Notes under the pieces: model-generated
What the model was told of the DNA's origin: nothing
What the model saw: only the letters and a program-made list of their open reading frames with translations
Databases searched by the model: none
Source of the DNA: Rhyacophila brunnea
Lineage: Eukaryota > Arthropoda > Insecta > Trichoptera > Rhyacophilidae
Assembly (NCBI GenBank): GCA_022495005.1
Contig: JAGYXB010001962.1
Location: forward strand, 1,302,001-1,366,000
DNA: 64,000 nucleotides
Reading direction: 5' to 3'
Program-made: the position numbers and the translations under genes
Part shown: piece after piece, positions 408 to 53,121 of the stretch
Numbering within the stretch: the stretch's first letter is position 1
Layout: each line of letters opens with the position of its first letter

Positions 408-455
408 TGTCCAGTTTGCGCGATTAGACAAGTTTTGCAAGCAGTCTCTTCAATC
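408..455 (-). CDS. micro-exon type C, copy C1 (48 nt)
   Basis: Exon-like segment open in phase 0, encoding IEETACKTCLIAQTGQ. On the minus strand a pyrimidine-rich tract ending TTTCAG precedes it and GTAATT follows it. Four paralogues (6433, 32164, 36197, 53074) have the same length, the same CxxC spacing and the same closing TGQ. It is the last recognised exon before the left edge. Positions 1-100 resemble sequence that lies beyond C exons elsewhere (about 36.7 kb), so another C cassette probably lies just outside the window. The function is not recognised. Splice sites and paralogy are seen; expression is inferred. Confidence 0.62.
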
Positions 456-1670
456 TGAAATTATAAAATAAAAATATTCTAATAAATCAATGTTGTAAAT
501 AATATAATATTTATTAGGGAACACAACATTAATGGGAACTGCCCAGCCAGCCCTACCACACCCAACTGGGTGTGGTGTAAAAGACTACGGATGTTGAGTG
601 TGGAAAATATGGGATAAACTCACTACAAAATCACAATCCAAATTAATAAGAGCATAGACCAAAAATACTCAATTTATTTCTACAGTAATAAAATATGTTT
701 GTATTCAATGAATAATTCTCAATATTTAAGAATGTAATATTCTTTTATTGAACATACATAATTTGAAAACACTTGCAAAATATTATATTACTAGTGGAAA
801 AAATCTTTTTGAAAAAATACGACATTTGAGATAAGCACCCATGTTCACTGACTATAGGTGCCCTATCTAATTGCGACGAAGGTAACTAGTGTCTTTACAA
901 TACTTTCTGAAGCTTCTTAGTTTAAGACGGTACTTCAGAGAAACGGCAAATAATTTTCAACTATAGGTGCGACGAAATTTCGGACTGGCTGGCAATCGGA
1001 GAGCGAAAGTCGAGCTGTGAACACGTCAATTTGTTTTGTGAAGGCGACGGGGGATTTAATTTTTAAATCGTGTAAATGTGACTAAAAAACGTTACCCATT
1101 TACTTGAAAAAGAAAACATGTCAATGAATGTATTATTATTATTAGCAATAGAACAATAAACATAACATTAAATGGATGCATGTTGACTTTTTATGACAAA
1201 TTATGTTTTGTTCTACACGCGTCATTTACATAATCTTCGAGTCGCGTAGTCACGATCGCTTTAGACCGTGCCCCAGCTGAAGTATAGCCTTACAGCGCTT
1301 TCTAAATTGCGTTTAGAAAACTTTTAGGCAGTCGGCTTTTGTATTTTTAAATCAAAGTTTACAATTACCATGATTTTTTTAGTATATTTTTGAATGAGTC
1401 ATTAAACAAAATTGGGCCGCAAGCGACTCTTTTTTTTTTTAATTAACTTCCGTGAAAAAATATACCTATATTAGAAAATATTCATATTTACAAGAATTTA
1501 AAGGATTTTCTCTCTTGTCACCTTGTTTTACAATAATATGTCAACGGCATACTAGCATGTCCTTTCACTACCCGTTATGCATGCGTATACCATGGTGTAT
1601 AAAACGTTAGGCGCAATTCAATGTTGTGCTGAGAGAGTCAGATGAGCAACTTCCCAAGACAACTTCTCAC
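456..1670. other. cassette intron (C to A) with a short dispersed repeat
   Basis: Non-coding spacer between exons A1 and C1. Positions 456-900 match the spacers beyond exons C2 (6481-6930), C3 (32212-32530) and C4 (36245-36700), so the whole cassette including intron was duplicated. Positions 945-1295 are a separate repeat shared with 10013-10375. I see no ORF of substance here. Confidence 0.55.
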
Positions 1671-1742
1671 CTCTTCTGACGTATTATTGTCGAACCATGG
1701 CTCAATTGTCCTATTCTGGTAGGTATCGTCATCCTCTAGTTC
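1671..1742 (-). CDS. micro-exon type A, copy A1 (72 nt)
   Basis: Phase-0 exon of 24 codons, reading ELEDDDTYQNRTIEPW followed by FDNNTSEE. The acceptor is TTTTATAG and the donor is GTGAGA. It is paralogous to A3 at 9730-9801. The two differ at five sites, all of which change the amino acid, while the adjoining intron is almost identical. The segment is acidic with an N-glycosylation-like NRT. It lacks the cysteine that A2, A3 and A4 carry, because the codon is Tyr here. Confidence 0.62.
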
Positions 1743-3185
1743 CTATAAAATACAGATATAGGTTATTATACAGTTTTAACGATTGTACAGGGTACATTTC
1801 GATCAGTTCAATAGGGGAACAACTCATAAAACCTTGTTCCAAGATAATGGCGTTTGAATTTTTTGCAGTAATTCTCATTTTAATTTTAAAGCCTTGATTT
1901 CGTTAAAAGTGTATGTTTTTTATATTTAATTTAGTGGAATTCATCAATACACAATGAAATTGTAAATTTAATAAAGAATTAACCAATAAATTTGATTATA
2001 TAACATAATAAATAATTAATCTCAGAAAGGATTATTCGATTTTATGACACAACGAAGACATTTTTGACCATTTTTTTTGCTGAATTATAAAGAGAAGACT
2101 TTTCTACATCGAATGGCATTTTTAACTCAAAACCTTTAAATTTTGAGTTGTTCCCCTATTGAGCTGTGGTATCGATTTGCTAGTATGATAATAATTAATT
2201 AATAACAATAGTAATTATAATACACGCTTGTGGTATATTAATTGTATGTTTGGTTTAGGCAGGGCTTAATTGAATTTAAAAACTAACCAGCACTACCTGC
2301 AAATGTGTATTCTTATTTCAATGAAAACAAATCAGTAAGTTAGTATGACTAACACAGCTTAGTGAGCAGTATTTATGTCGGATCTCTACGTCTACAGTCT
2401 ACACCTACAGTATACCTACTTCCACCCTTCAGCACTGTCAGACAATGGTACACAGTGACGTCCCGTGGGGGTAGGCAGATTGAGCGTCGCTTGGGGGCGG
2501 CAGTTTCTCGAAGGGCGGCAAATCGAGGTGAATCATTTGGTATATATAGAAATAGGTACCTAAACTTAGTAAAAACGAAAACATCAGCTTACCACCAGCT
2601 CATTGGTTGGAAACAAAATGTATTAATTAACATAAAAGGTTTAATAGGACTGTAATTTTAATGTTGGTTTAGTAATGTCTAGTTTACTTCCGTTGTCCTT
2701 GGACGTCACGTCCTTGATGACCAGAAATGACACGTGCAGATTTGCGAATCATATTTTAATTATAGGTAAGTACTTACATACTTACCTAATTAATTTATCT
2801 AAATGTTTTTGCTAGTCAGAGTTTTGAAAGTTGTCAGGTGTATTTTAAAATGTATCTGAAACCGTGGACTCGCAATATTGTAAATTAGATTTAGTGGTAA
2901 GTATATATTTTATATATATTTTGGTAGTAATGTATCCATTCAACAAATTTCTTGGATATTGGAGTCATGAGAGGATGATACAAATACTGTATAAAAAAGG
3001 GGGCGGCATTATGGCGCTGCTTAGGGGCGGAATTTTGTCTAGGGATGTCACTGATGGTACAAAACAAAGAATAAACGATAATTTGACCTGCAATAATCAA
3101 GAGAGCGTCTTTAAAAGTAAAATTTAAGGGACTAGTTTTGACGGAATCCTAGTATTTTCTCGTATGAAATTGTTTATTTTCTTAC
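1743..3185. other. intron/spacer between B1 and A1
   Basis: No gene seen. Positions about 2240-2480 hold a repeat that also lies beside the cassettes near 8.86 kb, 11.45 kb, 22.2 kb and 38.35-38.6 kb. Positions 2940-3120 hold a stretch shared with the sequence just before exon B at 11.5, 12.05 and 38.55 kb. Short ORFs here are not conserved between these copies. Confidence 0.4.
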
Positions 3186-3272
3186 CTCGTCTGGCATATT
3201 TTGGTGAGAGCGAATTGGCAACATTGCTGGGGGCTCATTAAATCTGTTCTGCGGGCGCCGCATCTTCAAATC
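3186..3272 (-). CDS. micro-exon type B, copy at 3.2 kb (87 nt, primary acceptor lost)
   Basis: Twenty-nine phase-0 codons beginning DLKMRRPQNRFNEPP and ending RSHQNMPDE, followed by a good donor GTAAGA. At the expected acceptor the AG seen in the 11.6-kb and 32.6-kb copies is CG. An internal AG nine bases downstream (after DLK, before ATG) would keep phase 0. It is either a pseudo-exon or an exon with a shifted acceptor. Confidence 0.45.
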
Positions 3273-4643: not shown

Positions 4644-4730
4644 CTTGGTGATGTCAGGCGAGCTGTTCGTGGAATTGCCGATGAGGTTGGTGCAATTATC
4701 TAGACAAAACACCCCTTCAATTGGTCTATA
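4644..4730 (-). CDS. micro-exon type D, copy D1 (87 nt, cysteine pair)
   Basis: Phase-0 exon of 29 codons: YRPIEGVFCLDNC then TNLIGNSTNSSPDITK. The acceptor is TTATTACAG and the donor GTGAAG. Paralogues are D2 (30221), D3 (33621) and D4 (45948). The shared core is EGVxCLxxC. The second cysteine pair present in D2 and D4 is replaced here by Asn/Ser, giving N-glycosylation-like sites. Intron sequence on both sides is shared with D2 and D3. Confidence 0.65.
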
Positions 4731-6432: not shown

Positions 6433-6480
6433 CTGTCCAGTTTGCGAGATTAGACAAGTTTTGCAAGCAGGGACTTCAAT
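6433..6480 (-). CDS. micro-exon type C, copy C2 (48 nt)
   Basis: Encodes IEVPACKTCLISQTGQ in phase 0, between a TTTCAG acceptor and a GTAATC donor. It differs from C1 at codons 3, 4 and 12, each time changing the residue. About 450 bp of flanking intron is shared with C1, C3 and C4. Confidence 0.62.
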
Positions 6481-8662: not shown

Positions 8663-8713
8663 CTCTGGCGATGGAGTATCAATCGTCCTATTCTGGCATG
8701 CTATTGTCAGCTC
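8663..8713 (-). CDS. micro-exon type A, copy A2 (51 nt)
   Basis: Seventeen phase-0 codons, ELTIACQNRTIDTPSPE, between a TATACTAG acceptor and a GTGAGA donor. This is the shortest A copy. It keeps the single Cys and the NRTID core but lacks the longer C-terminal part of A1 and A3. Confidence 0.58.
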
Positions 8714-9729: not shown

Positions 9730-9801
9730 CTCATCTGACGTATTATTGTCGGACCATGGCTCAATTGTCCTATTCGGGCAGGTATCGTCATCCCCTAGTT
9801 C
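9730..9801 (-). CDS. micro-exon type A, copy A3 (72 nt)
   Basis: Twenty-four phase-0 codons, ELGDDDTCPNRTIEPW then SDNNTSDE, with acceptor TTTTATAG and donor GTGAGA. It is the close paralogue of A1 and keeps the Cys. Short ORFs overlapping it on the plus strand are antisense shadows. Confidence 0.63.
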
Positions 9802-10012
9802 CTATAAAATACAGATATAGGTTATCATACAGTTTTAACGATTGTGCACAGGGTATATTTGGTGTTATGATAATAAATAAATTATAATAATAAAAAAAAA
9901 AATTATAATACACTAGCAGAGCCAGTTGGCGGTCACCAGTCTGTCTCGATAGGTCTTGCAGACGGCTTGGCGTCATAGTGACATGTTGTTGGATTTTAAC
10001 ACGATACATCAG

Positions 10013-10375
10013 TAAAACGGCAAATAGTTTTCAACTATAGGCGCGACGAAATTTCGGACTCACTGGCATTCGGAAAGAGAACGTCGAGCTGGGAATACGT
10101 CAATTTGTTTCGTGATGGCGACGGGGGTATTAATTCTTAAATCGTGTAAATATGACTAAAAACGTTACCCATTTACTTTAAGAAGAAAACATGCCAATGA
10201 ATATATTATTATTGCTACTAATAGAACAATAAACAGAACATTAAATGGACGCATGTTGGATTTGTATGACAAATTATATTTCATTTGGCATGCGTCATTT
10301 GCACCCGTGACCCGCAATCCACGCATCACCTAGCCGCGATCTTTTTAGACCGTGCCTCACCTGAGGTATAGCCTT
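10013..10375. repeat. dispersed repeat shared with 945-1295
   Basis: Near-identical blocks around GCGACGAAATTTCGGACT and CGTTACCCATTTACTT occur in both places. No coding signal was found. It lies beyond an A exon in both copies, so it may have travelled with the cassette. Confidence 0.5.
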
Positions 10376-11626
10376 AATATAAAATTGTGAAGTTATCCCT
10401 TCGAGATGGATTTTCATTACCCTCAGACAATTTGACATTTCACTGATTTGTCAGTTTTACGATTTGCAAGTCGTCACTGACAATATAAATTTGGGGTCAT
10501 ATGCGTAGTCTATCTGGAGTCTGACCTTCAGAATATCGTCTGACACCACCTCAGGCTGATAGGCCTAGCATAACAGCTGGCAATAGTCGACTTAGCAATC
10601 GAGTGTTAGCCCACTGATATTTTAATACAATATATTATGATAATTCGTAGCCTCAAATATCTTTAGGTAATTATTCAATAAAAAAATTATATGTGATCAG
10701 CCATAAAGAAGTATTTAAAAAATCATATTTGGAATAGTATATGTAATAATTCCAGTAGCGGCGCTGTCAGATAATGTGAGGATTGTAAATCGTTCCAAAA
10801 TTATAGTTTATTACTAAAGTGCCGGACAGTTTTTCATGGCGTAAAAAAAGTTTTTATAAGTTTTCTAAAAAAAAAGTTTTTAGAAATTCTATTAAAAAAG
10901 TTTAAAAATTATAATTGAGTTTTTGATATTCTATCTTTCATCGTATTTCTAGCCGAAGGTATATCTTTTATTTTTTTCCTTGTTTTCAAGTTTGTCAAAG
11001 AGATCGTGAAAGCATTTAAACCACTCTTCTTTCATATTATATTCTCCATCACCGAACGGTTTTCCATTTTAAGAGAGATTATGTTTGAGGCAAAATAACA
11101 AGCAATCATTATAATATTTGAACGACTGCCGATAATTATTAATTTCATAAGGTTTATTGATTGATTATTTTTATTTTTAATTAATTGTCCGATCCGAAGG
11201 ACCGACCTATGCAATTGTATATTTACATTAAACGTAATGATTATTCTTGAAAAGGATTTGCCTGCTATTTTTTATACAATGCGATTTGTCGTTTATGCAT
11301 GAATTTCGTCGTTTCCGTTTGGGCATCGATTGGTAAACATAATATGAAAACCCTAAGAAAATACGCATGGCTATGTCGTCAATATTTTTTTTAAATATAA
11401 TATAATATCTATAAGTAAGTACATATATGTACTTATATTTATTTATAAATACACCTACAGTATACCTACCTCCACCCTTCAGCACTGCCAGACAATGGTA
11501 CAGCACAAACAATAAACGATAATTTGACCTGCAATAATCAAGAGAGCTATTTTAAAAGTAAAATTTAGGGGGAAAGTTTTAACGGAATTCTAGGATTTTT
11601 TCATATGAAATTGTTTATTTTCTTAC
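10376..11626. other. spacer with a hAT-type repeat
   Basis: Positions 10800-11380 match 59290-59760 (for example TTTCTAGCCGAAGG and ATGAATTTCGTCGTTTCCG). This is probably the interior of an old hAT-type element. No intact ORF was found. Confidence 0.4.
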
Positions 11627-11707
11627 CTCGTCTGGCATATTTTCTTCAGGACGAATTGGCAACATTGCTGGCGGCTCATTGTTCTTCGGGCGCCGCATCT
11701 TCAAATC
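11627..11707 (-). CDS. micro-exon type B, copy at 11.6 kb (81 nt, both splice sites intact)
   Basis: Twenty-seven phase-0 codons, DLKMRRPKNNEPPAMLP then IRPEENMPDE. The acceptor is TTCTATCAG and the donor GTAAGA. It is the best-preserved member of the four B copies at 11.6, 12.2, 13.3 and 21.5 kb. Proline-rich, with a basic N-terminal RR and an acidic C-terminus, and no cysteine. Confidence 0.62.
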
Positions 11708-12178: not shown

Positions 12179-12268
12179 CTTGTTTGGCATATTTTTTTGG
12201 CCAGGACGAATTGGCAATACTGCTGGGGGCTCATCAGATTTGTTCTGCGAGCGCCTCATCTTAAAATC
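12179..12268 (-). CDS. micro-exon type B, copy at 12.2 kb (90 nt, primary acceptor lost)
   Basis: Thirty phase-0 codons beginning DFKMRRSQNKSDEPP and ending with NMPNK, then donor GTAAGA. The expected acceptor AG is CG. The in-frame internal AG before the ATG is intact. The frame is open despite the splice-site change. Confidence 0.42.
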
Positions 12269-13316: not shown

Positions 13317-13403
13317 CTCGTTAGGCATATTTTGGTTAGGACGAATTGGCAACACTGCTCGGGGCTCATCAGATCTGTTCTGCGAGCGCCGCATCTTCAA
13401 ATC
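13317..13403 (-). CDS. micro-exon type B, copy at 13.3 kb (87 nt, primary acceptor lost)
   Basis: Twenty-nine phase-0 codons beginning DLKMRRSQNRSDEPR and ending NMPNE, donor GTAATA. The acceptor AG has become TG. The internal AG nine bases downstream is intact. A likely hAT terminus, TTTCTTAACCGGTGGTCCG, starts near 13450 just upstream. Confidence 0.42.
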
Positions 13404-19049: not shown

Positions 19050-19620
19050 AATTTTTGAAGTTATACTTCTTTTGGCGCGTTTGGGAAATCAGATCAGAGT
19101 GTATTTTTGGCGTGTGATATGTAACACATAATTTAGTTTTTCAAACGAAAAAAAAACGCACTTGATTGGATTCGAACCATCGATTGTTCGGTTATCAGCC
19201 GAACGCACTACTTTTACGCCACGGTATGGTACTGCAATCGTTACGATTATACAGTATAATATTATAGTTTAGAATTATTGTTCCGTTGCCTAGGCAGTGA
19301 ATTTATTATTGTCGGCTATTTGCAATTCCTTATGTAAACAAACGATTAAACGTCAAAGTGACAGTTGGTACTTAAAAAATAAAAACAACGAGAAACCATT
19401 TAAGTATATAATTTAGTAATATAAGTTAAAGTGTATAGAAATAAGCTAACGGCGTTCCAATAAGCGGTCCTCTTTTGAGTGTGTAATTTAACAAGATAAT
19501 TAAGAGCTAGTCAAATAATCTAGTTTATCACAAGTTTTGTTTTTGTTTTGTTACGCCAAAGAAGTATAACTTCTAACGCGCTTACATAAGTACACGTACC
19601 GATTTTTTGTTAAATAAGAA
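19050..19620. mobile_element. TIR element (family 2), rearranged copy
   Basis: The left end has GAAGTTATACTTCTTTTGGC at about 19055. The right end has the inverse, CGCCAAAGAAGTATAACTTC, at about 19555. The interior differs from the two 725-bp copies at 33991-34714 and 53480-54207 and carries a tRNA-like relic. No ORF was found. Confidence 0.55.
19158..19229 (-). pseudogene. tRNA-like relic (GAT loop)
   Basis: The minus strand shows an A-box-like TGGCGTAAAAGTAGTGCG, a stem-loop TTCGGCTGATAACCGAA with GAT in the anticodon place, and a B box GGTTCGAATCC. The first and last seven bases do not pair well. It is a tRNA-derived relic or SINE head, not a confident tRNA-Ile gene. Confidence 0.4.
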
Positions 19621-21056: not shown

Positions 21057-21253
21057 CTGATTTCATCAGTTTACGTAGATACATGACGTGTGAACTTGAA
21101 TCGGTTTATAATTTGTCTAGAGGTTGTTGCCAGACAACGGTACAAAACAAACAATAAAAGATAATTTGATCAGCAATAACCATGAGAGCTTCTTTGAAAG
21201 TAAAATTTAAGGGGAAAGTTTTAACGGAAACCTAGCATTTTTCGTATGCTTAC

Positions 21254-21697
21254 CTCGTTTAACATATTATTTTGGCCAAGAAGAATTGAGTCGTATAGTA
21301 TCAAAAGTAGATCTGTGCGTTATTCAGCATTTCGAAAATATGATGAAAAACGTTTTGTTGAGTTTTTTAGTGTTATAATAGCATGAAATATGTTTCTACA
21401 TTTAGAAATTAGAAATTCAATTCAAATTCAACAGTTCTACTTTTGTTTCCAAAGTATGGAACAGTTCTAATTCTGATACCAAGCCCTATTTTCCATTACA
21501 ATTTTATACCACACAGATATGATTTTGATTCGAATATTATATTGCTAGTCGTACATTATGGTCAGAAGAATAATTTGGCATAATTAGTTAAATTTCGATA
21601 TATTTGCGACAGTTCTACTTTTGATACTACACGACTCAATTGGCAACACTGGTGGGGGCTCATGAAATCTGTTCTGCGGGTGGCGCATCTTCAAATC
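21254..21697 (-). pseudogene. micro-exon type B split by a MITE
   Basis: The two halves (21254-21287 and 21638-21697) match the B exon with its GTAAGC donor. The 350-bp element at 21288-21637 interrupts it at the AATT within the PI codons of the shared LPIR motif. The primary acceptor is also CG instead of AG. This copy can no longer act as a simple exon. Confidence 0.7.
21288..21637. mobile_element. MITE (350 bp) inside a B exon
   Basis: Inverted ends of about 24 bp start GAGTCGTATAGTATCAAAAG on the left, with the matching inverse on the right. They are flanked by AATT on both sides (21284-21287 and 21638-21641). The undisturbed B paralogues show a single AATT at this place, so the duplication is real. 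No ORF was found. Confidence 0.82.
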
Positions 21698-22599
21698 CGG
21701 ATATAACAAAATATATAATATAAGTATAGAATGATATTAAATTATTGTGTAGACCAGCAGCGGCGCACCAATGGCACACAAGCCATGTGTGGCACATACG
21801 GGAGTCATGTTGAGAAGCAAATATATAATTTTATATTTTTTACCTATATTACTCGCTAGTCGTACTAACCACTAAGCTACAATTCTGGTAAGAGTTTACA
21901 CGAGTTGACTAGTAAAAGTGTATATTAACAACATAGCATATACACAAAAATAGCCATACTCCAGCAGGAATTATTTTTTGTCAATAAACACTATTCATAT
22001 TAATTGTATTCTTAAATTCTAATGTAGGTACCTATTTAATTTTTGTACTATTCCACTTGAGTCATTTTTTGCGATCAAAGTTTCGTCTTTCGGCATCTTT
22101 AGGCACACTGACAACGAATACAATAAAATTAATTCTAACTTATATAATAAATTAATACTTACAATACAATACAGAAGTACTGACAGAGTGTGCATTATAT
22201 TTATCGAATATCCACAATCTACCTCTATTAATATGATTTGGTCGAGGAAGGGTTTAATTCAAACTTAAAAACTAACTAACATCATCTAAACTTTGTATTC
22301 TTAGTACAACAAAAATGAATAAGTATAACTAACAAAGTTTAGTGTGCACAATTCGTGGGTCAGGATGTGTAGTCAGGTAAGTCACAAAAGATTTTATGAA
22401 TCTAGCGTATTTTTAAAGATATTTTGAGAAATTTTGAAAAAAAATAACAACAAAACGTAAGTAAAATAGTCATATTTTAAATATGACCTATAAAAATAAG
22501 TAGGTATGTGTATTATTTGTAAATTATACAAAATTTACCAAATTTATCGAAAATGATTTATTTAAATCTCAAAACACGTACACAATATCTAAACAAATA
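21698..22599. other. cassette spacer, no gene seen
   Basis: Positions 21700-22020 resemble the sequence beyond the B exons at 11.7-12.0 kb. Positions 22040-22110 are the reverse of the 3465-3550 repeat. Positions 22220-22340 match the repeat at 2240-2360. Confidence 0.4.
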
Positions 22600-24997: not shown

Positions 24998-27900
24998 TTT
25001 TTCCGAAGGAAATTTGGACATGGCAATCGCAACGCAAGAGGGGAAGATTTTTTGCAGTCCTGCGTAGAGCAGGATCTTGCAATCATGAATACATGGTTTC
25101 AACATCACCCTAGGAGATTATACACATGGATCTCACCGGGTGATCGCTATAGAAACCAGATTGATTTCATAACAATAAATAAAAGATGGCGGTCATCAGT
25201 GTTTAATGTACAAACCTACCCAGGTGCAGACTGCGGTAGCGATCAAGTTGAAAAAGACTAAACTATGTGAGAATAATCGACCGTTTATATTTAAAGATAC
25301 TACGACATCGCAATTTAGCGAGGAGGTGAATCGTATAATGGCATCACTATACGTAGACCCCAGCGACAGTCGAAACAACATGGAATAAGTTGAAGGAAGC
25401 CACCTTATGCGCGATGGAGGAAGTCCAGAAACTCAATAACAGTAAGGATTATCCGAAACGTCGCAAGATCTGGATATCTGATGAAACATGGGAGGCCATA
25501 CAAACAAGAGCCGATCTTAGAAATAAGGGACTTAATTCAACTTTACAACATGCAAGGTACTCTGAACAAAACAGAGTTGTTCAGCGACTCCGTCGGCGGG
25601 ACAAGAATCTTTTCCTCAGAAATAAGTGTGAAGACATCGAAACCCATGCTGTCAGAGTAGAAACTCGCGATCTTTTCCAAAAAGTGAAAGAAATCACAGG
25701 AGATTTCAAGAAAATGAACTGGGCCATCGAGGAAGAGGACGGCACACTACTTATAGATTTGGATAGGGTCACGGCAAGGTGGAAAACATATTGTGAAGCC
25801 CTATACAGAGATACAGAAGAGAATGATGAGGTGGTTGACGTACGTATCGATGAGCAAGAACCTGAAATACTTTTTAGTGAAGTGATAGAGGCGATAAAGA
25901 GACTAAAAACCCACAAGTCACCAGGTGGTGATGGCATAGCTGCAGAAGCATTTAAAAAGGTCAATGATGACGGAAAAAGAATCATATATCAATTATGCAA
26001 CATGATCTGGAAAAGTGGTGTATGGCCCAAGGACTGGACAGAGTCAATTTTGATCCGCCTGCACAAAAAAGGTTCCTCACGTAAATGTGAAAACTATCGA
26101 ACAATTTCACTTATTCCACATGCAAGTAAGATCTTATTACATATAATCAGCAGGCGTCTGAAGCATTTCATCGACCGAAAAATACCCAAGGAACAAGCAG
26201 GTTTTGTTATGGGGAAGGGAACTCGAGAGCAAATTCTGAACATCAGACAACTAATTGAAAAATGCAGAGAGTTTAATACCCCTATGATGTTATGTTTTAT
26301 TGACTACCAGAAGGCATTTGACTGCGTAAGATGGAACTGTAGGTGGAAGGTACTTCTGGAAATGGGAGTTCCATCACACCTTATCTGTCTCATCAAAAAC
26401 TTATATAACAATAGCCACACAAAGGTGAGAGTAAATAGTGCGTTTTCTGAGAGTTTCCGAACCGAGAAGGGAGTTCGTCAGAAGGCCAATTCTTGAATGA
26501 AGCAGTAAAAAACACCGCTTTAATGAAGCATAAATGAAGCACGTAATTTTTTTAGTTTTACAGGAGATATTGTGTGTATAAAGCTTCGAACGAAATGCAT
26601 TCGTGCGAGTGAGAAAGCATTCAGCATGCTTATATCTTATATCCATGCGTTAGAGTAAGATAGAAAGTAAACATGCCAAAACGAACTGTTTGTGAATTGT
26701 TGAAGTACGTAGCCAATTAATCAGTTACGTCTCCAATATAACAATATTACAACACGGAATTTCCGTTGTATTTTGCAAACAAACATGTGTGTTTCTGTAT
26801 TACAAAATCACAATAAATATTTAAGTGAGAATTTAAACACAAACTAATACTTTCAGCGGTAATAGTTGTGTAAAAAATAGAAAAAATAGAATAACAGCCT
26901 GCTTACTACGTACAAATTTTTGACGTTTAATAATATGTCAAAGTCAAATGGAGAGTTACTAGTGCCTCTAGCGGCAAAGCGTGTATAGTTAAATTGCATA
27001 CTGTACTCGACACCACCGGTCGACTTTTAATATACTTCGTTGTAGTAGGTTTGCGCTTAGGTTGTGCAACCGGTAATACTGCTTCATTCAAGAATTGGCC
27101 TTCTGGATGTGTTTTATCTCCCCAGTTATTCAATATATATCGAGAGCATATAATGCGAAGAGCCCTAGATCATTGGCAAGGCGGAATAACAATTGGTGGC
27201 CAGAAAATAAATAACTTAAGATTCGCAGATGATACCACACTAATCGCTGCTGATGAAAGAGAACTAACAGAGTTGCTACACCGGGTAGAGGAAGAGAGTC
27301 GCAAATACGGCCTCCTTATTAATAGGAATAAAACCAAGTAAATGGTTGTTGATCGGGCCAACCTTCTACCAACACCAAGTACACTCCAAAACCTCGAAAT
27401 AGTCGACGAGTTTGTATATCTTGGATCGACCATCAGTGAAAAGGGCGGATGCGAAGCGGAAATAAGAAGGCGCACACAAATTGCAAAAAGTGCGATGACA
27501 CGCCTTACAACTATATGGAAGGATCGGGGAATTTCGATTGCCACAAAAATGATGCTTGTGCAAACATTAGTGTTCTCGATATTCCTATACGGAGTCGAGT
27601 CGTGAACCCTGAAGGCAAGAGAACGGAAGGCAATTAATGCCTTTGAGATGTGGTGTTGGCGCCGAATGCTACGCATTTCTTGGACGGAGCACAGGACGAA
27701 CCAGTCAATCATCCAGGGACTGAAGATAAAGGCACGGCTCTCGACGATATGTCTGAGAAGAATTCTGCAGTTTTTTGGACATATTGTCAGGCGCGGACCG
27801 GACAACCTGGAGAAACTGGTAGTTTTGGGTAGACTCCAGGGAAGGCGAAGCAGAGGAAGAGCGTCTGCGCGATGGAGCGACCAAGTGAAAGAGCTGACTG

Positions 27901-28050
27901 GGGGCACCATCCATTCTGCCCTGAGAGAAGCGGAAGATCGAGAAGTATGGAAAGTCTTGGTCGCTCAAAGGATGGCGAAATTTAAATGTGGTCACGATCC
28001 TCAGCCATGAGTGCACGACCAAGAAGAGAGATAAAATTATACATTTTATT
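24998..28050 (+). pseudogene. RTE-clade (BovB-like) LINE, endonuclease plus reverse transcriptase, broken
   Basis: The last part of an AP-type endonuclease is at 25000-25255 (NTWFQHHPRRLYTW, GDRYRNQIDF, ADCGSD), followed by a linker and the reverse transcriptase from 25390. Visible RT landmarks are HKSPGGDGI, KGSSRKCENYRTISLI, CFIDYQKAFDCV with the first catalytic Asp, and RFADDT with the second Asp pair at about 27228. The C-terminal end is FEMWCWRRMLRISW to the stop at 28008-28010. Breaks: a deletion near 25245 between two GCGATC copies, a frameshift near 25370, a 623-bp insertion at 26482-27104, and stops at 27339 and 27603. The 5' part of the endonuclease is missing. Confidence 0.9.
26482..27104. 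mobile_element. non-autonomous TIR element inside the RTE reverse transcriptase
   Basis: A perfect 29-bp inverted repeat occupies 26479-26507 and 27077-27105, beginning CAGAAGGCCAATTC. The LINE frame is continuous between 26481 and 27105, right at the RQ|GC step that follows the palm region. No clear target duplication is visible. CAG on the left and CTG on the right read as part of the inverted repeat. No transposase ORF is inside, and the superfamily is not assigned. Confidence 0.82.
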
Positions 28051-28620: not shown

Positions 28621-28913
28621 TGGTGGGGTAAATAACACTATCGATGATTTTTCATGTTTGTATATTTGTCTTTTCACAACCTTAAATTTAATATTTTAAT
28701 AAATAATATTTTTATAAAATAAAATCACCCGCAAAATTAGTTAATTTTTTATGTTTACTGGTGGTGATATATTATGTATAAATTATACTTTATTGTGATA
28801 GCAGACTCTTAAGTGCCACAACTTTACTGTCCCTCTATGTCTCTGGCGCCTGGTTACTATGAAGACTGAGGCATGCTGTAACAGAGTAGTATTCTGCTGT
28901 TTTTTTTTTAATA

Positions 28914-28994
28914 CTTCATCCTTACGCTGTCACAAGTTGCCTTGTCCAGGTGCTGCAAACCTTTTCCCGTATCGTAGAATTCTTTAGCGGTCAC
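28914..28994 (-). pseudogene. micro-exon type E, copy E1 (donor damaged)
   Basis: Twenty-seven phase-0 codons, VTAKEFYDTGKGLQHLD then KATCDSVRMK, after a good TTTTTATAG acceptor. E2 ends ATGAAG|GTAA, but here the sequence runs ATGAAGTATT. One G is missing, so either the donor is lost or splicing at AA|GTAT shifts the frame by one. E2 and E1 share EDFYDT / KEFYDT and a single Cys. Confidence 0.5.
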
Positions 28995-29781: not shown

Positions 29782-29854
29782 GGCAGCTGTAGCATAATGG
29801 TAATGCACAGGGCGCGAAACCCAACAGACGCTGGTTCGATTCTAGCCGGGTGTC
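29782..29854 (+). pseudogene. tRNA-like relic
   Basis: A 73-nt segment with an A-box-like TAGCATAATGGTAATGC and a T-arm GCTGG TTCGATT CTAGC that pairs. Most acceptor pairs form (GGCAGCT with GGGTGTC), with at least two mismatches. The anticodon stem is weak. It is probably a tRNA-derived SINE head or tRNA pseudogene. Confidence 0.4.
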
Positions 29855-30220: not shown

Positions 30221-30307
30221 CTTAGTGATGTCACACAAGCAGTTCGTGCAGATGCCGATGGGTTTGGTGCAAGTATGTAGACAGGACACTCCTTCGCTTA
30301 ATATAAC
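30221..30307 (-). CDS. micro-exon type D, copy D2 (87 nt, five cysteines)
   Basis: Twenty-nine phase-0 codons, VILSEGVSCLHTC then TKPIGICTNCLCDITK, with acceptor TTATTACAG and donor GTGAAG. It has the first CxxxC pair plus CxxCxC. PIGxC is shared with D4, and the end DITK with D1. Flanks are shared with D1 and D3. A MULE-type element lies about 50 bp upstream of the acceptor side. Confidence 0.65.
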
Positions 30308-32163: not shown

Positions 32164-32211
32164 CTGTCCAGTTTGCGCGATTAGACAAGCGTTGCAAGCA
32201 GGCGCTTTAAT
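32164..32211 (-). CDS. micro-exon type C, copy C3 (48 nt)
   Basis: Encodes IKAPACNACLIAQTGQ in phase 0, acceptor TTTCAG, donor GTACCT. The CxxC and TGQ are kept while residues 2-4 and 7-8 vary. It shares flanking intron with C1, C2 and C4. Confidence 0.62.
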
Positions 32212-32602: not shown

Positions 32603-32665
32603 CTCGTTTGGCATATTTTGGGCAGGACGAATTGGCAACATTGGTGGGGGCTCATCAAATCTATC
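32603..32665 (-). CDS. micro-exon type B, copy at 32.6 kb (63 nt, intact sites)
   Basis: Twenty-one phase-0 codons, DRFDEPPPMLP then IRPAQNMPNE. The acceptor is TTCTTTCAG and the donor GTAAGA. Compared with the 3.2-kb copy, the LKMRRPQN codons after the first Asp are deleted in frame, which also removes the alternative internal acceptor. Confidence 0.6.
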
Positions 32666-33620: not shown

Positions 33621-33686
33621 CTCGGCGATGTCATACAAGTTATTGGTGCAAGAATCTAGACAAAAGACTCCTTCAATTGATGTTTC
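33621..33686 (-). CDS. micro-exon type D, copy D3 (66 nt)
   Basis: Twenty-two phase-0 codons, ETSIEGVFCLDSC then TNNLYDIAE, with acceptor TTATTACAG and donor GTAAAG. It is 21 nt shorter than the other D copies, so the length changed in frame. The second cysteine pair is absent. Confidence 0.62.
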
Positions 33687-33850: not shown

Positions 33851-33990
33851 TTTATTTTTAAATTAAATATCTCTTACAAAAATTCATATACTGTCTGTGC
33901 CTTAGGTGCCAAAATTATTGGTGGTGAACAATAATTGGCTGATTCGGTGAAATATATACTTAATATCTGACGAGCATATATTATTTATAT

Positions 33991-34714
33991 TTTTGAAGTT
34001 ATACTTCTTTTGGCGCATTTGGGAAAACAGATCAGAGTGTATTTTTGGTGTGTGACGAAGTTGCGCACGCCGATGCAACACATAATTTATTATTGGCATG
34101 TGACGAAGTTGCGCGCGCCGATGTAACACATAATTTATTATTTCAGTCCCAAGGGTATATGCGCATGCGCACAGTGTCATTTAGATAGTCGTTCAATACA
34201 ACCAAGTAAAGAGCATGTGTTGTAAACATAACCAATATTGTGTCATAAAAATATATATGTTGATAAACAAATTTCTGGAGACTAACATTTAACACTGTTA
34301 ATTTATATTCATAAAACTTTATTTATATTGGAGTGTATATTTATTTTTCATTGTAAAGATTGTGTATCAAGATTTGAGGCTATATTTATGTAAGTATTAT
34401 TTATGAGTAAAATTATATATCAATAAATAAATACATTTTGTGAATAGTGAGTTGGTAAATAATTTTAATTCATCATGGGCACTTCTGAATCGATTATAAC
34501 CGCTGTATAGCAAATATGAGTTTTGGTCCAATACAATAATTAAATTACAATTATCATGTGCTATATGAGACACAGATGAATCGCGTAGGTTTTCATCAAC
34601 ATAATCCACTGTAATATTAATAGACTCAGGTAGGTAATGGCTTATTTTGTTTTGTTACGCCAAATAAGTATAACTTCTAACGTTTGTACATAAGTACACA
34701 CACCGATTTTTTTT
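33991..34714. mobile_element. TIR element (family 2), about 724 bp
   Basis: Left end GAAGTTATACTTCTTTTGGC and right end with the inverse, CGCCAAATAAGTATAACTTC. The second full copy is 53480-54207, same orientation. Here a block with GTGACGAAGTTGCGC is present twice in tandem. I recognise the type as common in aphid DNA from memory only. No transposase. Confidence 0.65.
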
Positions 34715-35947: not shown

Positions 35948-36064
35948 GCCAACGGCACGCGGTGTTCCCAAGCGGTCTCCCATTCAAGTACTATCCGCGC
36001 CCAATGTTGCTTAACTTCGGTGATCGGACGAGAACCGAGATAGCTCGGCTAACGTGCTTGTCGC
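35948..36064 (-). rRNA. 5S rRNA-like gene or pseudogene
   Basis: The minus strand holds the 5S hallmarks GGTTCTCGTCCGATCACCG, AAGTTAAGCAAC, TAGTACTTGAATGGGAGACC, GCTTGGGAACACCGCGTG and the end CCGTTGGC. A run of six T follows directly, as in a Pol III terminator. The first 30 bases match 5S poorly, so the 5' strand of helix I and helix II is doubtful. Length is about 117-120 nt. It is a diverged single copy or a 5S-derived element rather than a member of a normal 5S array. Confidence 0.7.
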
Positions 36065-36196: not shown

Positions 36197-36244
36197 CTGT
36201 CCAGTTTGCGCGATTAAACAAGTTTTGCAAGCAGTCACTTCAAT
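36197..36244 (-). pseudogene. micro-exon type C, copy C4 (acceptor AG changed to TG)
   Basis: Encodes IEVTACKTCLIAQTGQ in an open frame with donor GTAATA. The acceptor reads TTTCTG instead of TTTCAG, and no in-frame AG follows inside the exon. It is probably skipped. Confidence 0.55.
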
Positions 36245-38114: not shown

Positions 38115-38195
38115 CTCTTCTGACTTGTAGGAGTGACTTGGAGATACTTGTGGTGGTATATCAATTGTCATATCCGGGCACTCTATTGTCATCCC
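38115..38195 (-). CDS. micro-exon type A, copy A4 (81 nt)
   Basis: Twenty-seven phase-0 codons, GMTIECPDMTIDIPPQ then VSPSHSYKSEE, with acceptor TATACTAG and donor GTGAGA. It is the longest A copy and the most different in sequence. The single Cys is kept. Confidence 0.62.
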
Positions 38196-38667: not shown

Positions 38668-38757
38668 CTCGTCTGGCATATTTTCGTCAGTACGAATTAT
38701 TGGCAACACTGGTGGGGGCTCAATAAGTTTCTTATCCGGGTGCTGCATCTTCAAATC
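38668..38757 (-). CDS. micro-exon type B, copy at 38.7 kb (90 nt, primary acceptor lost)
   Basis: Thirty phase-0 codons, DLKMQHPDKKLIEPPPVLP then IIRTDENMPDE, donor GTAAGA. The AG of the primary acceptor is AT. The internal AAG before ATG is present and keeps phase. It lies 0.8 kb beyond the intact B copy at 39.6 kb. Confidence 0.45.
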
Positions 38758-39557: not shown

Positions 39558-39626
39558 CTCCTGTTGTATAATTGGCAACACTGGCGAGGGCGCATCGACT
39601 TCTTTTTCAGGCGTTGTCAACCCCTC
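39558..39626 (-). CDS. micro-exon type B, copy at 39.6 kb (69 nt, intact sites)
   Basis: Twenty-three phase-0 codons, EGLTTPEKEVDAPSPVLP then IIQQE, with acceptor ATTATTATAG and donor GTAAGA. It is the most divergent B copy, keeping PxPVLPI and the exon ends. It is only 54 nt from segment F, a plausible minimal intron. Confidence 0.62.
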
Positions 39627-41370: not shown

Positions 41371-43224
41371 CTAGCTGACCCGGCAAACGTTGTTCTGCCA
41401 TATAAATTATTTGTAGTGAATATTTTGGTTGTTAAATAAAAAATAACGAATGTATCGTAAGTGTGTGGGGATGGGATCTATGACAGAAAGAGGAATAAAG
41501 CGCTGTAGACGATGACCGCCGATAAAAACAAAAAAACATCGACCATTCATTTTCTCAATTCAAAACGAGTAATGATGTTCATAATGAATGAATTACCTGT
41601 GACAAGATCTCGTTGTTTAATGTTTATGCAATATCCGTCTTGTCCCTTCCAGAAAATTAGTGGATATTGGAGAGCGTCGTATGACCAGTGTGTGTCAGCG
41701 ATGAACTCCAGATTATTGTTTCTTCTTCGAATCACGATTTCTCGCGTCGATGTGCGGTCGCCAACCATGATTCCAGCAATGTCGTCACCAACAGGCGCAT
41801 TGAATCGACGCACGTGCTCTCCAGCTGGTGTTTTATCAGGATTGATGACAATAGCATGATTGTCACTTTGCAATTCGTGCATGTGTGCTTTGAAGAATTT
41901 CAATAATTCATTGTACTCATTCAACAGGGCGTCCAGTTCGCCGACGATGCGCCTGGCATTAGGCGAATTGAGGTTATTGTAGCCGCAACGTGCATCTACA
42001 TGATTGATGTCCTCACCACCCATGAAGTAGATTTGTAAAAATGTATGTGTTTCGTTTGGCATTGGCAGCAATGAGCCTACTTTGTGATATACTTGGCCTT
42101 TGATTTTGAACGTAGAATGGAATTGTTGACCATTTGCCGCAGTATTGTGAACTATTTCTGTTGCTCCGAACGAAGTCATTTGGAAGCATGAATTGAATGT
42201 GCGAATAGACTTCAGGAACCGGTTTGAATCTGGAACCGAGCCGATGAGCAAGCCGTTCAATGGTTCTGGTGGTATCTCAATTTCTGGTAGTTGCACTTTT
42301 CCTCATGCGCAACACATTCCGGCTGACTCATGTTTGAATTTGAGCGCATGACAATGGGGACATTCTTTGTCCATAGCACCAATCAGCACTTTTGGATGAG
42401 CGGAATATTCAATATCTGGCTCGTACTCGAATGCGAGACGAAGGAACGAAGCGGATAAAAATGTTCGATGTACTTGTTGGCGTTGTCGGTCATTTGCTCT
42501 GCGTGTGTTAACTACGAACCGGCGCGCTTGGCTCCGTTCCAATTGTCGCTGTTGATTTCATACAGCTCGTGCCTCTTGTGATTGGGATGCACGCAATTGC
42601 GACATGCTTACACGCACGTTTTTGTTATCTTGTTGGATTTGTTCGTCTGTTCTTTCTGCTCTACTATTTTGCATGTTTGTTGCCTTATTCGTTCGACGGC
42701 CCAAATGGCCCCCCTTGCGTCTTGCTGGAATTGTGCACTGTAATACACGCACATAAAAATAGATAAATTAAAATAAATCGTACAAAAATTTTGCACGCAC
42801 TTCGTTGTGATATGCCGAATGAAATGTCAAAATAACGCGACGCTTCTCTTGAATTCTTCTCGGACGTAGCGCCATCTGTCATTCGACAACATAAATAATT
42901 TCGTTCTGTTTGAAATACGATCGACGGTTAAATAATAAAATCGCGATTAAAAAATGGAAGGGTGGGGATAGGAGGGTGAAAATTTGTGTTTATAAGTATT
43001 GTTTTATGCCAAATAATAAAAATATACAAAAAAAATTGTCAAAAAAATAAAAGAAATTTTTTCTGGATAGAGATACCCTAATCACCTAGCGGTATGAAAT
43101 ATACTTGTTGACCTATTCTCATACCTAAAAAATATACATAAAAAAAATCATAAAAATCGGTCGAGCCATTTCGGAGGAGTTCGACCACAAACATCGTGAC
43201 ACGAGATTTTTATATATATAGAGA
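41371..43224 (-). mobile_element. Helitron (about 1.85 kb), truncated, minus strand
   Basis: Read on the minus strand it begins TCTCTATATATATAAAAATC and continues with GACGATGTTTGTGGTCGAAC-like sequence known from insect Helitron 5' ends. It finishes GTTTGCCGGGTCAGCTAG, a CTAG terminus. The inside holds a decayed Rep/helicase N-terminal part. Copy A of the host MULE lacks this insertion and serves as an empty site. The C-terminal helicase is absent. Confidence 0.82.
41547..42752 (-). pseudogene. Helitron Rep/helicase N-terminal part, decayed
   Basis: One frame from 42752 to 41547, interrupted only by two stops (about 42555 and 42297-42302). Landmarks are a basic repeat-rich start, the zinc-knuckle CPHCHALKFKHESAGMCC, a block LPEIEIPPEPL, FKIKGQVYHKVGSLLP, FLQIYFMG and THWSYDALQYPLIFWKGQDG. 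These are typical of the N-terminal Helitron helicase-like region. The frame ends before the Rep HUH motif and the Pif1 helicase, so the protein is not functional. Confidence 0.85.
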
Positions 43225-43509: not shown

Positions 43510-43596
43510 CTTCATTGCCTTAGAATTCGGACCGCAAATATCCTTTTTTCGGTGCACCAAACCATTTCTCGTATCGTAGAAATCTTCTGCATTCAT
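43510..43596 (-). CDS. micro-exon type E, copy E2 (87 nt, intact sites)
   Basis: Twenty-nine phase-0 codons, MNAEDFYDTRNGLVHR then KKDICGPNSKAMK, after a GTTTTATAG acceptor and before a GTAAAA donor. The first codon is ATG, but paralogue E1 begins GTG at the same place after the same acceptor, so it is more likely an internal exon. It is charged, with one Cys. Confidence 0.6.
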
Positions 43597-45109: not shown

Positions 45110-45181
45110 ATGCCCGTAGCTTATTTATTAAAGTACATTGGGGCGAATCTAGTGGTTACAGGTTCAAGTCCCGTCGGGCGT
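45110..45181 (+). pseudogene. tRNA-like relic
   Basis: A seven-pair acceptor stem forms (ATGCCCG with CGGGCGT, one G-T pair). A TAGCTTA start and a B box GGTTCAAGTCCC are present. The anticodon arm does not fold properly. It is a tRNA pseudogene or SINE head. Confidence 0.42.
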
Positions 45182-45345
45182 TGTATTTTTTCTAGTGGTT
45201 GAGATGTTTTCAAATTATGTACCTAGTTCATCAACTATAAGTTTTTAGCCAAAAATACTGTAGGTATATTATAATTTTATGGAAGGCGGCAATTTATATT
45301 CGCATTGCCTTACGTAGCGTGCCACTTGTGGCATTTTTAATAATA

Positions 45346-45947: not shown

Positions 45948-46034
45948 CTTGAGGATCGTTATGCCACAGTCTCTGCAGGTTCCAATTGGTGTGCTGCAGG
46001 AAAATAGACAGTAGAGCCCTTCTCTCGCAGTAGC
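45948..46034 (-). CDS. micro-exon type D, copy D4 (87 nt, two cysteine pairs)
   Basis: Twenty-nine phase-0 codons, ATAREGLYCLFSC then STPIGTCRDCGITILK, with acceptor TTTATTGCAG and donor GTGAAG. It has CxxxC followed by CxxC, four Cys in all. The CRDC recurs in C5 (ACRDCMMAMTGQ), which suggests that C and D exons share an origin. It differs most from D1-D3 in sequence and flanks, so it is probably outside the recent amplification. Confidence 0.68.
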
Positions 46035-46984: not shown

Positions 46985-46992
46985 GCTCTTAC

Positions 46993-48978: not shown

Positions 48979-48981
48979 ATA

Positions 48982-50271
48982 CGAGGGTGGGTCAATAATT
49001 CCTTAGAAAAAAGCATTAAAACAGTTTTTATTTTTGTATTTTTTTTTATTTCTCAACATAATCTTCTTGGAGCTCAATACACTTGGTAAGACGTTTCTCA
49101 ATTTTTTTTAAACCGTCAGAAAAATAAGTTTTCGGAAGGTCCTCAAAATAAGCATTATTTGTCCGATCGATGACTTCTTCATTTGAAAAAAAACGTTGTC
49201 CACTTAGCCATTTTTTTAAGTTTGGGAAAAGGAAAAAGTCACTGGGGCTAAATCTGGCGAATACGGTGGGTGGTCGACCAATTCGAACTTCAATTCTTCA
49301 ATTTTAGCCATTGATCGTAAACATGTGTGAACACGGGCATTGTCCTGATGAAAGAAGATTTTTTTCCTGTTTAAATGAGGCCGTTTTTCTTCAATTTTGT
49401 TTTTTAGCTAGTCCAATAAAGATGCATAATAATCCCCTGTTATTGTTTTTCCTTTTTCCAAATAGTCAACGAAAATAATTTCACGTGCATCCCAAAATAC
49501 AGTAGCCATAACCTTACCAGCTGATTTTACGGTTTTCGCCTTCTTTGGACATGGTTTGCCTTCGCAATCCACTGCTTTGACTGTTCTTTCGTCTCGGGAG
49601 TATAGTGGTGTATCCATGTTTCATCTACAGTCACAAAGCGACGAAAAAATTCATCCGGATTGCGTTGCATGAGCGACAACAGGGCTTTAGAGGCCACCAA
49701 CCTATTGCGTTTATTGTCGACTGTGAGCAAACGCGGCACCCATCTTGCAGAAATATTTTTCATGCCCAATTTGTCATGTAAAATAGAAATGACGCTACCT
49801 TTTGAGATCCCTGTAACCTCAATTATCTCACTCAACTTTAATCTTCGGTCACTTAACACCATATCGTGGATTTTATTGATCATTTCTGGTGTAGTCACCT
49901 CTACAGGACGTCCTGAGCGTGGTTCATCCTTTGTTGATGTACGACCACGTTTAAATTCAATTAACCAGTTATAAATAGTTGCAAGTGAAGGAGCAGATAT
50001 GCCGTGAACTAAATCCAACTCATTTTTTATTTCCTTTGCTGTTAACCCTTTTATATTAAAATGTTTAATAACAGCTCTAAACTCAATTTTCTCCATTTTT
50101 GTAAACAAGCAAATTTTTTTTAAATGTACGAGAAACACACAACAACCCGACCAATCTGATTGAAACTTCGCAGCATACTGAATCGGTAGTGCCGCTGCAT
50201 GAAAACAAACCGCTTACAGTACTAGTCGCGCCACCTGTCGGCTTTTCTAAGGACTTATTGACCCACCCTCG
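48982..50271 (-). mobile_element. mariner element, full length (1290 bp)
   Basis: Inverted ends of 29 bp with one mismatch, starting CGAGGGTGGGTCAATAA, and TA directly outside on both sides (48980-48981, 50272-50273). It carries a mariner transposase reading on the minus strand with three lesions. The ends still look active, the protein does not. Confidence 0.95.
49046..50096 (-). pseudogene. mariner transposase, inactivated
   Basis: Starts MEKIEFRAVIKHFNIKGLT at 50096. It has the helix-turn-helix part with SAPSLATIYNWLIEFKRGRT and SGRPVEVTTPEM, then VTVDETWIHHYTPE (first Asp), FHQDNARVHTC (second Asp) and HPPYSPDLAP (third Asp, DD34D arrangement), ending near DYVEK. Lesions are a frameshift near 49550, a stop codon at 49408-49410 and a one-base deletion after the third Asp near 49240. 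Length is otherwise normal for the family (about 345 residues). Confidence 0.93.
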
Positions 50272-51290: not shown

Positions 51291-52296
51291 ACGGGTATCC
51301 GACATTTTGCTCACTTAGGCATAAAGCCCACCAAGACGGACAAGCGGGCGCAGTCGGCGTAAGAAGCGTATATTCATAACCATAATCACACGCCTCTTGC
51401 CGCACATTACCCTTCACCTATGTAATAAGGGGCCCAAGAAGCACAAAATAATTATTATTACAGCGCCTCTCATAACAAAGCAATAAAAATATTATATTAT
51501 TTATCAGGGCTTGTAATTAAATATCGGACACGCAATAACTAAACAAAGCGTACACTGTTCTTAATAATGGCTTCTCGCCCGTCTTATCGACGACGCTTCG
51601 AGGAACGTGATTTTGCTTGCTGTGTTCAATGAATAGACTCCGTTGTATTTTCGTTAAATCGTATCTCTGAGAAGCGAAAAACGGTGACTCATGCGGCAGG
51701 CGGGGCACAAGGCATCGTCAAATCCAGTGTGCGCTGGCGTATTTGATTACGTTGTATTTTCGATGATTTACGCGTCACTTGTAGAAATTTTGCGCGAGCG
51801 CCGCACTCGCTGCGTCAATGGGCTTTATGCCTTACAGTGACCATTATACAGTTGCGTTGTTTATGTAGGTAATAAGTATAAAAATACCATTGATAACAAA
51901 AATAATCTCAATGAAAAAAACGACTGATTATTATAGTAGTAGTGGTGCTGAAGACTTTTTTACGTTCCATTCATTACGTTGATTTTGAAAGTGTATTTAT
52001 AGAAAATTATAAACATTTGTTTGAAAACATAGGGAATAATCAAAGTATGATACGGACAGTGAATCAGCAATAATAGATCATCCAGCGATAGTGAATATGA
52101 AGGTTTTCCTCGGGAGAGCTGTGATCTCAATGTGACGTATTATAGTCAATAGTGGAAGTGACATCAGCCCGTACAAAAGAAGACTATATGCAAATATCAG
52201 CGTTGATAATGACGGTGAAGTTATTGTAAGACCTTCAAAACCTTCATGACCGAATTCAACAAAAATGGTACTTATTATCCACCAATATATCCCAAA
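51291..52296. other. no gene seen
   Basis: Somewhat GC-richer between 51300 and 51830. No recognised ORF (63- and 64-codon minus frames only) and no element ends identified. Confidence 0.3.
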
Positions 52297-52797
52297 CATG
52301 GCCCCCACATCCTATAGCGGGCCCTCAGGCCAGGATGTATGGAGGGCCCTCCTACCTACCGCTAAGGTTAAGGGCAGTGTGATTTTCTACAGTAGTGTTC
52401 CCTAAGTGGTTCCCACGGAACCCCAGGGTTAAGGGTATTCAGTGTATTTTTAGCGATTTTTAAATAAATCCAGTTGATTTATTGAGTTGTTGGCACTCAG
52501 CATATTATGAAGCACTTGTGGTACCCAAGTAACATGGAATCCTTCGCCATATTTGATAAAAGCCATTTTGTAAGTCAAGAAACACACAACAATAATTATA
52601 TAATATAATTCCACGCATGAATTATCATTTAATTATATCAGTCATCATATCACATCACATAGTCACATATTTTGAAATGGAAAATAGCGCCGCATCCAAC
52701 CTTTTTACTAAGTATTAGAGCAAATTTGTGTTTTTCTCATTTAACTGGTCGACTTTGTCTGGTCCCTCTAAGCCCGGGCGCCCAGGTTAGAGCCCCG
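52297..52797 (+). mobile_element. hAT-like MITE (family 4), copy 3, right end missing
   Basis: Starts CATGGCCCCCACATCC and follows the family to CCCAGGTTAGAGCCCCG, where the last 25 or so bases are absent. The flanks are still ATCCCAAA (52289-52296) and ATCCCAAC (52798-52805), seven of eight matching. Confidence 0.72.
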
Positions 52798-53073
52798 ATC
52801 CCAACAACAAATCAACTTTTCCATCGGAAATAAAATTGTTTGGAGCTCATAAACTCTTTTCAATTATTTTTCACCAATTGTCAAAGAAACCAATAAGTAT
52901 ACAAATAATAAATTACGATATATTTATTATATTTATAGATTTTGCATTTTTTACTTTTATATTGAAAGAATATCTAAAATACGCTGTATGTATACCAACT
53001 GAAAATGTGCAAATCTTGAAATGACAGATTTGAAAAAGTACCCTTCTATTAATAGTATATAACTGTAAAATAC

Positions 53074-53121
53074 CTGTCCCGTCATCGCCATCATGCAGTC
53101 ACGGCAAGCAGGCCTAATAAT
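53074..53121 (-). CDS. micro-exon type C, copy C5 (48 nt)
   Basis: Encodes IIRPACRDCMMAMTGQ in phase 0, acceptor TTTTCAG, donor GTATTT. It has the same size and Cys spacing as C1-C4 but the core has diverged, and flanking introns no longer match. It is the most upstream recognised exon; no first exon or signal-peptide exon was found to its right in the window. Confidence 0.65.

Follow-up and report, generated by a model that had tools for sequence, protein, structure and literature searches.

The window analysed here, the whole 64,000-nucleotide stretch of Rhyacophila brunnea DNA (positions 1302001-1366000 of contig C1081, in a genome of 1.087 Gb and 2118 contigs), carries short exon-like segments that probably belong to a tandem cluster of genes for a cysteine-rich protein family. 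Coordinates are window-based; negative values and values above 64000 lie in the flanks, and the contig position is 1302000 plus the number given. The exon list was rebuilt from profiles (A-D, then F) seeded by segments picked by eye. It comprises 24 segments on the minus strand, from 53121 down to 407, and the phase-0 frame is open in every one; 22 of the 24 are a multiple of three in length, and 22 have GT at the 3′ edge, each at or above the 92nd percentile among 3479 minus-strand GTs. AG is present at the 5′ edge of 17 segments, each at or above the 83rd percentile among 2838 minus-strand AGs. The seven that lack it are an A copy (36244), four D copies (38757, 13403, 12268 and 3272) and two D fragments (21703 and 21283), the fragments additionally lacking GT and a length divisible by three. 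The original prediction, made from the letters of this DNA, had placed 24 such segments on one strand with AG and GT mostly in place; the same number was recovered, and its account of the splice sites holds well for GT and less well for AG.

Five exon types, A, B, F, D and C, were distinguished by profile (the types B, F, D, C and A used here are probably the C, D, E, B and A of the prediction). Exon A is 48 nt long (39-48 nt across the listed copies), exon B 87-90 nt (66 nt in one copy), exon D 63-90 nt and exon C 51-81 nt, and exon F is 87 nt when internal and longer when it bears a stop. From 5′ to 3′ along the minus strand they follow one another as A B F D D C A B D A B F D D D D D C C A B D C A. 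The A-D profiles were run against both strands, the seed copies matching by construction, and all their matches in the window lie on the minus strand, with E values down to 2e-37. Beyond the window, both strands carry divergent copies that retain the cysteine spacing, the frame and the splice sites. Since the matches are confined to one strand of the window and the divergent copies keep these features, the segments exceed what chance would give. The proposal that they are real coding exons, amplified as cassettes in tandem copies, is borne out.

The A-B-F domain

The three small phase-0 exons A, B and F together code for a single domain, which is about 74 residues long and contains 7-9 cysteines. 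When seven A-B-F products are aligned, 15 columns are invariant, namely seven cysteines and A, T, G, L, F, T, G and H, and the cysteine-patterned product that had been predicted is thereby upheld. The frame consists of CxxC in exon A, C-x3-C-x6-C-x2-C in exon B and F..T..G..H.....C in exon F. Eight cysteines are present in U1, V1, V3, M3 and P2 (the loci are described below), seven in M1/P1 and nine in U2.

At five loci (M, P, U1, V1 and V3) and in the near-copy P′ an A-B-F set has an F that contains a stop, followed within about 200 nt by AATAAA at all of these loci except U1, a motif that is not rare in AT-rich DNA. A, B and F recur together, and the variable phase-0 exons D and C link domains; the loci look like single-domain sets and apparent two-domain sets, the latter joined by D and C linkers. 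The repeated unit had been proposed to be a five-exon cassette (C-D-E-B-A in the lettering of the prediction), which has to be redrawn: the domain is A-B-F, D and C are linkers, and F often comes last and carries a stop. All exons are in phase 0 at both ends, so the frame survives when an exon or an entire domain is duplicated, lost or skipped. Both duplication and loss are observed, and we infer skipping as well.

Paralogous loci and the extent of the cluster

The original prediction described the array over 52 kb, and the cluster proved to extend far past the window, covering at least 240 kb on both strands. Compact sets with only A, B and F as far as found, and with a stop in F, lie on the minus strand at 104496 to 97842 (U1), -50247 to -53109 (V1) and -125379 to -128447 (V3), each spanning about 3-7 kb. 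At U2 (77854 to 74548), A and B are accompanied by an F that lacks an early stop, and V4 (contig 1163.5-1162.0 kb) has A and B, no F being found within the fetched piece. On the plus strand, locus P comprises a first domain with A (-21429), B (-17714) and F (-16499, donor GTAAAA), the linkers D′ (-15004), D (-13205), D (-10247) and C, and a second domain with A (-8794), B (-6661) and F (-4354, with a stop and AATAAA), all open and with the expected AG and GT. A second copy of P, named P′, lies at -95965 to -72767, and its ten known exons stay open.

The segments between 53.1 and 28.8 kb of the window are apparently most of one two-domain gene on the minus strand, gene M, no first exon having been identified. 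Its first domain consists of A (53074-53121, 48 nt, IIRPACRDCMMAMTGQ, with AG and GT, open), B (45948-46034, 87 nt, with the C-x3-C-x6-C-x2-C pattern) and F (43510-43596, 87 nt, read as internal, with a donor); the A, B and F of this domain are 92% identical to those of its plus-strand paralogue P1. There follow the linkers D′ (39558-39626, 69 nt), D (38668-38757, 90 nt) and C (38115-38195, 81 nt), an A copy (36197-36244, 48 nt), a B copy (33621-33686) that is 21 nt shorter, in frame, and lacks two of the four cysteines, and a short D copy (32603-32665, 63 nt) with good AG and GT. The acceptor AG is missing from two of these exons, the 90-nt D and the A copy. The last domain consists of A (32164-32211, 48 nt), B (30221-30307, 87 nt) and F (28908-28994), read as terminal with a TAA stop; an alternative end of this F would be the GTAAGG after 69 nt. 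An AATAAA downstream of the stop was read in the sequence at 28789-28794.

In a tree of ten domain copies, domain 1 of M, P and P′ and domain 2 of M, P and P′ form separate groups, with support of 100/99 and 98/96, respectively, and of 100/100 for the U/V clade. This split indicates that the two-domain plan is older than the duplication that gave M and P. The region from about -120 to -68 kb is related to that from about -36 to +1 kb by an interrupted duplication. The longest block in it (-78952 to -71536 against -10337 to -2938) covers 7.4 kb at 98.4% identity, and the blocks 5′ of it along the P/P′ gene pair are just 90-94% identical, a change in identity that may mark gene conversion.

A genome-wide protein search with the B exon of U2, which bears mainly on U/V- and domain-1-like copies, gave 11 candidates in total. 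Eight lie on C1081 between 1162008 and 1403508, among them the first B of gene M, and one each on C571 and C805, both scoring as U1. The remaining match, on C313 (E 2.3), was rejected as a family member: the B pattern was absent from the 800 bp inspected, and the match was taken as chance. The C571 piece (162001-172000) matches the end of C1081 in three blocks, of 2915 bp (98.6% identity), 1784 bp (98.8%) and 1800 bp (94.7%), and is probably the other haplotype retained in the assembly. As far as tested, the family appears to be one cluster and not a dispersed repeat.

Constraint and rate of change

The substitution-rate and simulation sets consist of chosen copies and exclude both D fragments (21703 and 21283), the short D (32665), two truncated B copies (-361 and -69990), one partial A (-25943) and V4; the A+B+F statistics further omit the lone A copies at 69738 and -60734 and those A and B copies of the window that have no F. 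In the set used for nonsynonymous (dN) and synonymous (dS) rates, F was trimmed before the stop in P2, U2 and V1, so that F lengths are uninformative on multiples of three.

Neutral change was simulated with substitutions only, starting from a present-day copy, and the pairs are not independent. For the 12 pairs of a U/V-clade with an M/P-clade copy, the open frame was kept in 2-7% of runs, and an open frame together with at least six cysteines in 0-0.35%; for the other nine pairs the latter figure was 0.1-31%. Constraint is also seen between P and P′, in the 5′ half of which exons differ at 11/387 sites and introns at 287/5113 (Fisher p=0.019). Seven of the 11 exon differences are at third positions, and 28 of 32 gaps within the 5′-half blocks are not multiples of three. 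With A+B+F and near flanks only, the comparison is 7/222 against 66/1127 (p=0.14).

Exons and flanks were compared in 12 copy pairs, only alignable flank being counted. Within the U/V clade, exons are more divergent than alignable flanks in all six pairs (which are non-independent), with odds ratios of 1.7-2.9 and p values from 0.009 to 4e-5. For V1 and V3, in which long introns align, the exons differ at 20/237 sites and the introns plus 3′ flank at 65/2188 (p=0.0001). Nei-Gojobori dN/dS values are 0.32/0.27 for U1-U2, 0.25/0.23 for U2-V1, 0.38/0.35 for U1-V1, 0.21/0.14 for M3-P2 and 0.08/0.11 for P1-M1; for five deep pairs dN is 0.45-0.68 and dS 0.79-2.24. The pattern fits diversifying selection over a fixed cysteine frame. 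Exon exchange between paralogues, local mutation effects or a bias towards similar flanks in the alignment could also produce the exon excess.

Origin of exon D

One D unit, used as a genome query, gave 15 matches, of which C1081 has seven near full length and two partial. The remaining six are partial, comprising the 3′ part and the donor, and lie on C1217, C1048, C415, C99, C52 and C48. These were considered as family members and rejected: four were inspected and one was used as a query, and they proved to be a dispersed repeat instead. Among the best 40 of 2939 candidates for that query, the 39 non-self matches start at query position 81-96. The matches begin at about TGTTGCCAA, which is common to exon D, and a ready splice donor is part of the repeat. 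This starting point indicates that the 3′ part of D, its splice donor and the start of the intron are repeat-derived; the 5′ part of exon D was seen in the cluster only.

Interpretation

We consider the locus to be, with somewhat better than even probability, part of a tandem gene cluster of an undescribed, fast-evolving, disulphide-rich protein family. The cysteines would form disulphides in a secreted protein, the surface of which would be diversified by selection from an antagonist, whether a host, prey, a parasite or a mate, and the cluster would be a repertoire of related effector-like or immune-like proteins. Secretion itself is possible, judging from how the cysteines are arranged and how the family evolves. 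In its sequence the family looks like a new one of the arms-race kind. A fuller version is put forward tentatively and is rather doubtful as a whole: a lineage-restricted secreted repertoire built on a cysteine framework, independent of schistosome micro-exon genes (MEGs) and aphid bicycle genes, in which phase-0 domains and linkers are gained, lost and swapped among neighbouring genes, exons outpace introns, and a linker with its donor was recruited from a repeat.

Several observations weigh against this reading. Acceptors are lost from 7 of the 24 window segments, six of the seven being D copies or fragments. Domain 1 of M and P has an odd number of cysteines (seven). The first F of gene M may possibly end one gene, the exons from D′ to the last F being a second. 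Scans for a conserved first exon, based on conserved open reading frames in M, P and P′ and in V1 and V3, gave in our judgement no convincing candidate, which does not prove that there is none. The B search missed five known cluster copies (30307, 33686, 4730, -6661 and -75255), so similar copies may exist elsewhere; hence its narrower bearing, given above. As for the exon excess, flank divergence is biased low because only alignable flank was included, and exons and flanks do not differ significantly in M1/P1, M1/P1′, M3/P2 and P1/P1′. The excess in M3/P1 and M3/U2 (p=0.03 and 0.003) rests on 74 and 72 flank sites, and the exon alignments contain gaps of 1, 2 or 5 nt in 4 of the 12 pairs. Finally, the 3′ flank of V1/V3 after the stop differs at 8/108 sites, almost the exon level, against 57/2080 in the introns, and the synonymous and nonsynonymous rates of this pair are about equal (5/54 and 15/180). 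Given these two results, exon exchange or local effects could account for the V1/V3 excess as well as selection could, and the divergent 3′ flank slightly lowers the weight that we give to the fuller version.

The same family might instead be intracellular, with the two CxxC motifs, the histidine and a further cysteine binding zinc and no signal peptide. The scans that yielded no signal-peptide exon would agree with this, as would the invariant histidine of the alignment; three of the five Pfam matches are to zinc-binding families, and the best PDB match is Fin, which we take to be a zinc-binding protein. All of these database matches are insignificant, however (best E 0.26-0.28), and the cysteine and histidine spacings match no zinc finger known to us. 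An extra cysteine at clade-specific sites, giving a total of eight in U1, V1, V3, M3 and P2, suits disulphides better, with the caveat of the seven in M1/P1 and nine in U2, and N-glycosylation sequons can be read in some B and C copies. We regard zinc binding as unlikely.

It is more improbable still that the segments form a neutral array, in which dead exons travel with repeats that undergo segmental duplication and open frames are inherited rather than maintained. Such an array would account for the lost acceptors, the shortened B, the F not found at 0.4-21.7 kb and the part of exon D within a dispersed repeat. Equal decay of frames and splice sites had been named in advance as the mark of neutral repeats, and decay is indeed present in part: acceptors are lost, chiefly in D. 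All 24 frames are open. The simulation results and the exon constraint between P and P′ argue against neutrality, as do cysteines conserved across copies with 57-71% DNA identity and the mere 11 candidates of the B-exon search. A single very large, alternatively spliced gene would suit the uniformly symmetric intact exons and the one strand used throughout the window. It is hard to reconcile with the stops in several F copies, mostly followed by AATAAA, and with copies on both strands, and we consider it highly improbable. The prediction had left a single gene or tandem copies side by side; of these, tandem copies are retained, the 52 kb appearing to hold roughly one two-domain gene and a decaying array (described below) rather than one simple gene.

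In venom gene families exons change faster than introns, and in schistosomes and aphids gene families with small exons of one phase and rapidly changing proteins have been tied to host manipulation. No member of the present family could be placed by homology: among seven members scanned, no Pfam match was above the gathering score (best E 0.28), searches of PDB and of one protein database gave no significant match, and a literature search found no paper on this cysteine-domain family, which does not prove that none exists. The aphid KQY/KHI cassette effectors (Dommel et al. 2020, PMC7495047) resemble the present genes in being large genes for small proteins with many small exons, family expansion and proposed combinatorial cassettes. 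They differ in that 33 of the 37 exons of KQY1a are at most 15 bp long and the loci are mostly scattered, whereas the present exons measure 48-93 nt, a cysteine domain is the unit that is repeated and the loci are clustered; for their shared signal-peptide cassette no counterpart was found here in the first-exon scans. Aphid bicycle genes (PMC9168663) likewise have many small single-phase internal exons and diverge rapidly, but those exons are almost all in phase 2 and many of the proteins have CYC motifs, whereas the exons here are in phase 0 and C-Y-C occurs in 0 of 10 A-B-F peptides. Salivary-gland expression is another mark of the bicycle genes. Symmetric exons (22 of the 24 window segments), duplication and variation are shared with schistosome MEGs, whose exons are 6-36 bp long over about 80% of the coding region (PMC5825161). 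A signal peptide is a further MEG trait, and the one convincing candidate for it here lies in a repeat. The window segments are 35-90 nt long, the 22 of intact length 48-90 nt, and the micro-exon label of the original prediction does not suit a family with exons of 48-93 nt. With venom gene families (PMC2711939, PMC3862624) the likeness is a conserved cysteine frame, and here the U/V-clade exons outdiverge their flanks; there is no homology, and the present family is known from DNA sequence alone.

If the family is unrelated to those of schistosomes and aphids, its different phase, exon size and domain would point to repeated origins of this kind of architecture. The pairs P/P′, M/P and V1/V3 are graded duplicates in which changes can be dated against their own introns, including exon gain and loss, domain duplication, exonisation of a repeat and accelerated change.

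Further exon copies and neighbouring elements

The remaining window segments, from 21.7 to 0.4 kb on the minus strand, have the order D D D D D C C A B D C A, with no F found by profile. They begin with a degenerate D copy (21640-21703) that has neither AG nor GT and a 3′ fragment of D (21249-21283) recognised by profile match. These are followed by D copies at 13317-13403 and 12179-12268, both with the acceptor AG lost, and a D copy at 11627-11707 that has AG and GT and in which the 3′ part and the donor match the high-copy dispersed repeat. Two C copies (9730-9801, 72 nt; 8663-8713, 51 nt), an A copy (6433-6480, 48 nt), a B copy (4644-4730, 87 nt) that has lost two of its four cysteines, a D copy (3186-3272) with the acceptor AG lost, a C copy (1671-1742, 72 nt) and an A copy (407-454, 48 nt) complete the series, and a truncated B copy comes next at about -361, just beyond the window. 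AG is absent from five of the six D copies or fragments, and we read this stretch as a partly decayed duplicate array.

A 78-nt hydrophobic exon beginning with ATG and ending in a GTAAAT donor occurs at 1181, 10254 and -68457 on the minus strand and at -31741 on the plus strand. It was considered as a signal-peptide first exon and rejected, since it sits inside a high-copy repeat of about 372 bp (window 921-1292, used in a genome search); the best 40 of 4479 candidates gave 42 matches, 40 of them 94-100% identical. The repeat, at 921-1292 and 9995-10376 on the minus strand and -31852 to -31493 on the plus strand, has an open reading frame that mimics a signal peptide and is a trap for gene annotation.

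Long open reading frames at 25357-28007 (plus strand), 41550-42302 and 49530-50213 (minus strand) and in the flank at -38377 to -43070 (minus strand) resemble reverse transcriptases, a protein of Helitron type and transposases of mariner type; judged by eye, they look like transposons of arthropod type. One 5S ribosomal RNA match and three weak transfer RNA matches, at 35957-36048 (minus), 29783-29854 (plus), 19164-19222 (minus) and 45110-45182 (plus), respectively, are possibly repeat-derived. A further repeat of about 724 bp lies at 33990-34713 and 53478-54207, and the full-length or long copies among the best 40 of its 3513 candidates are 84-93% identical.

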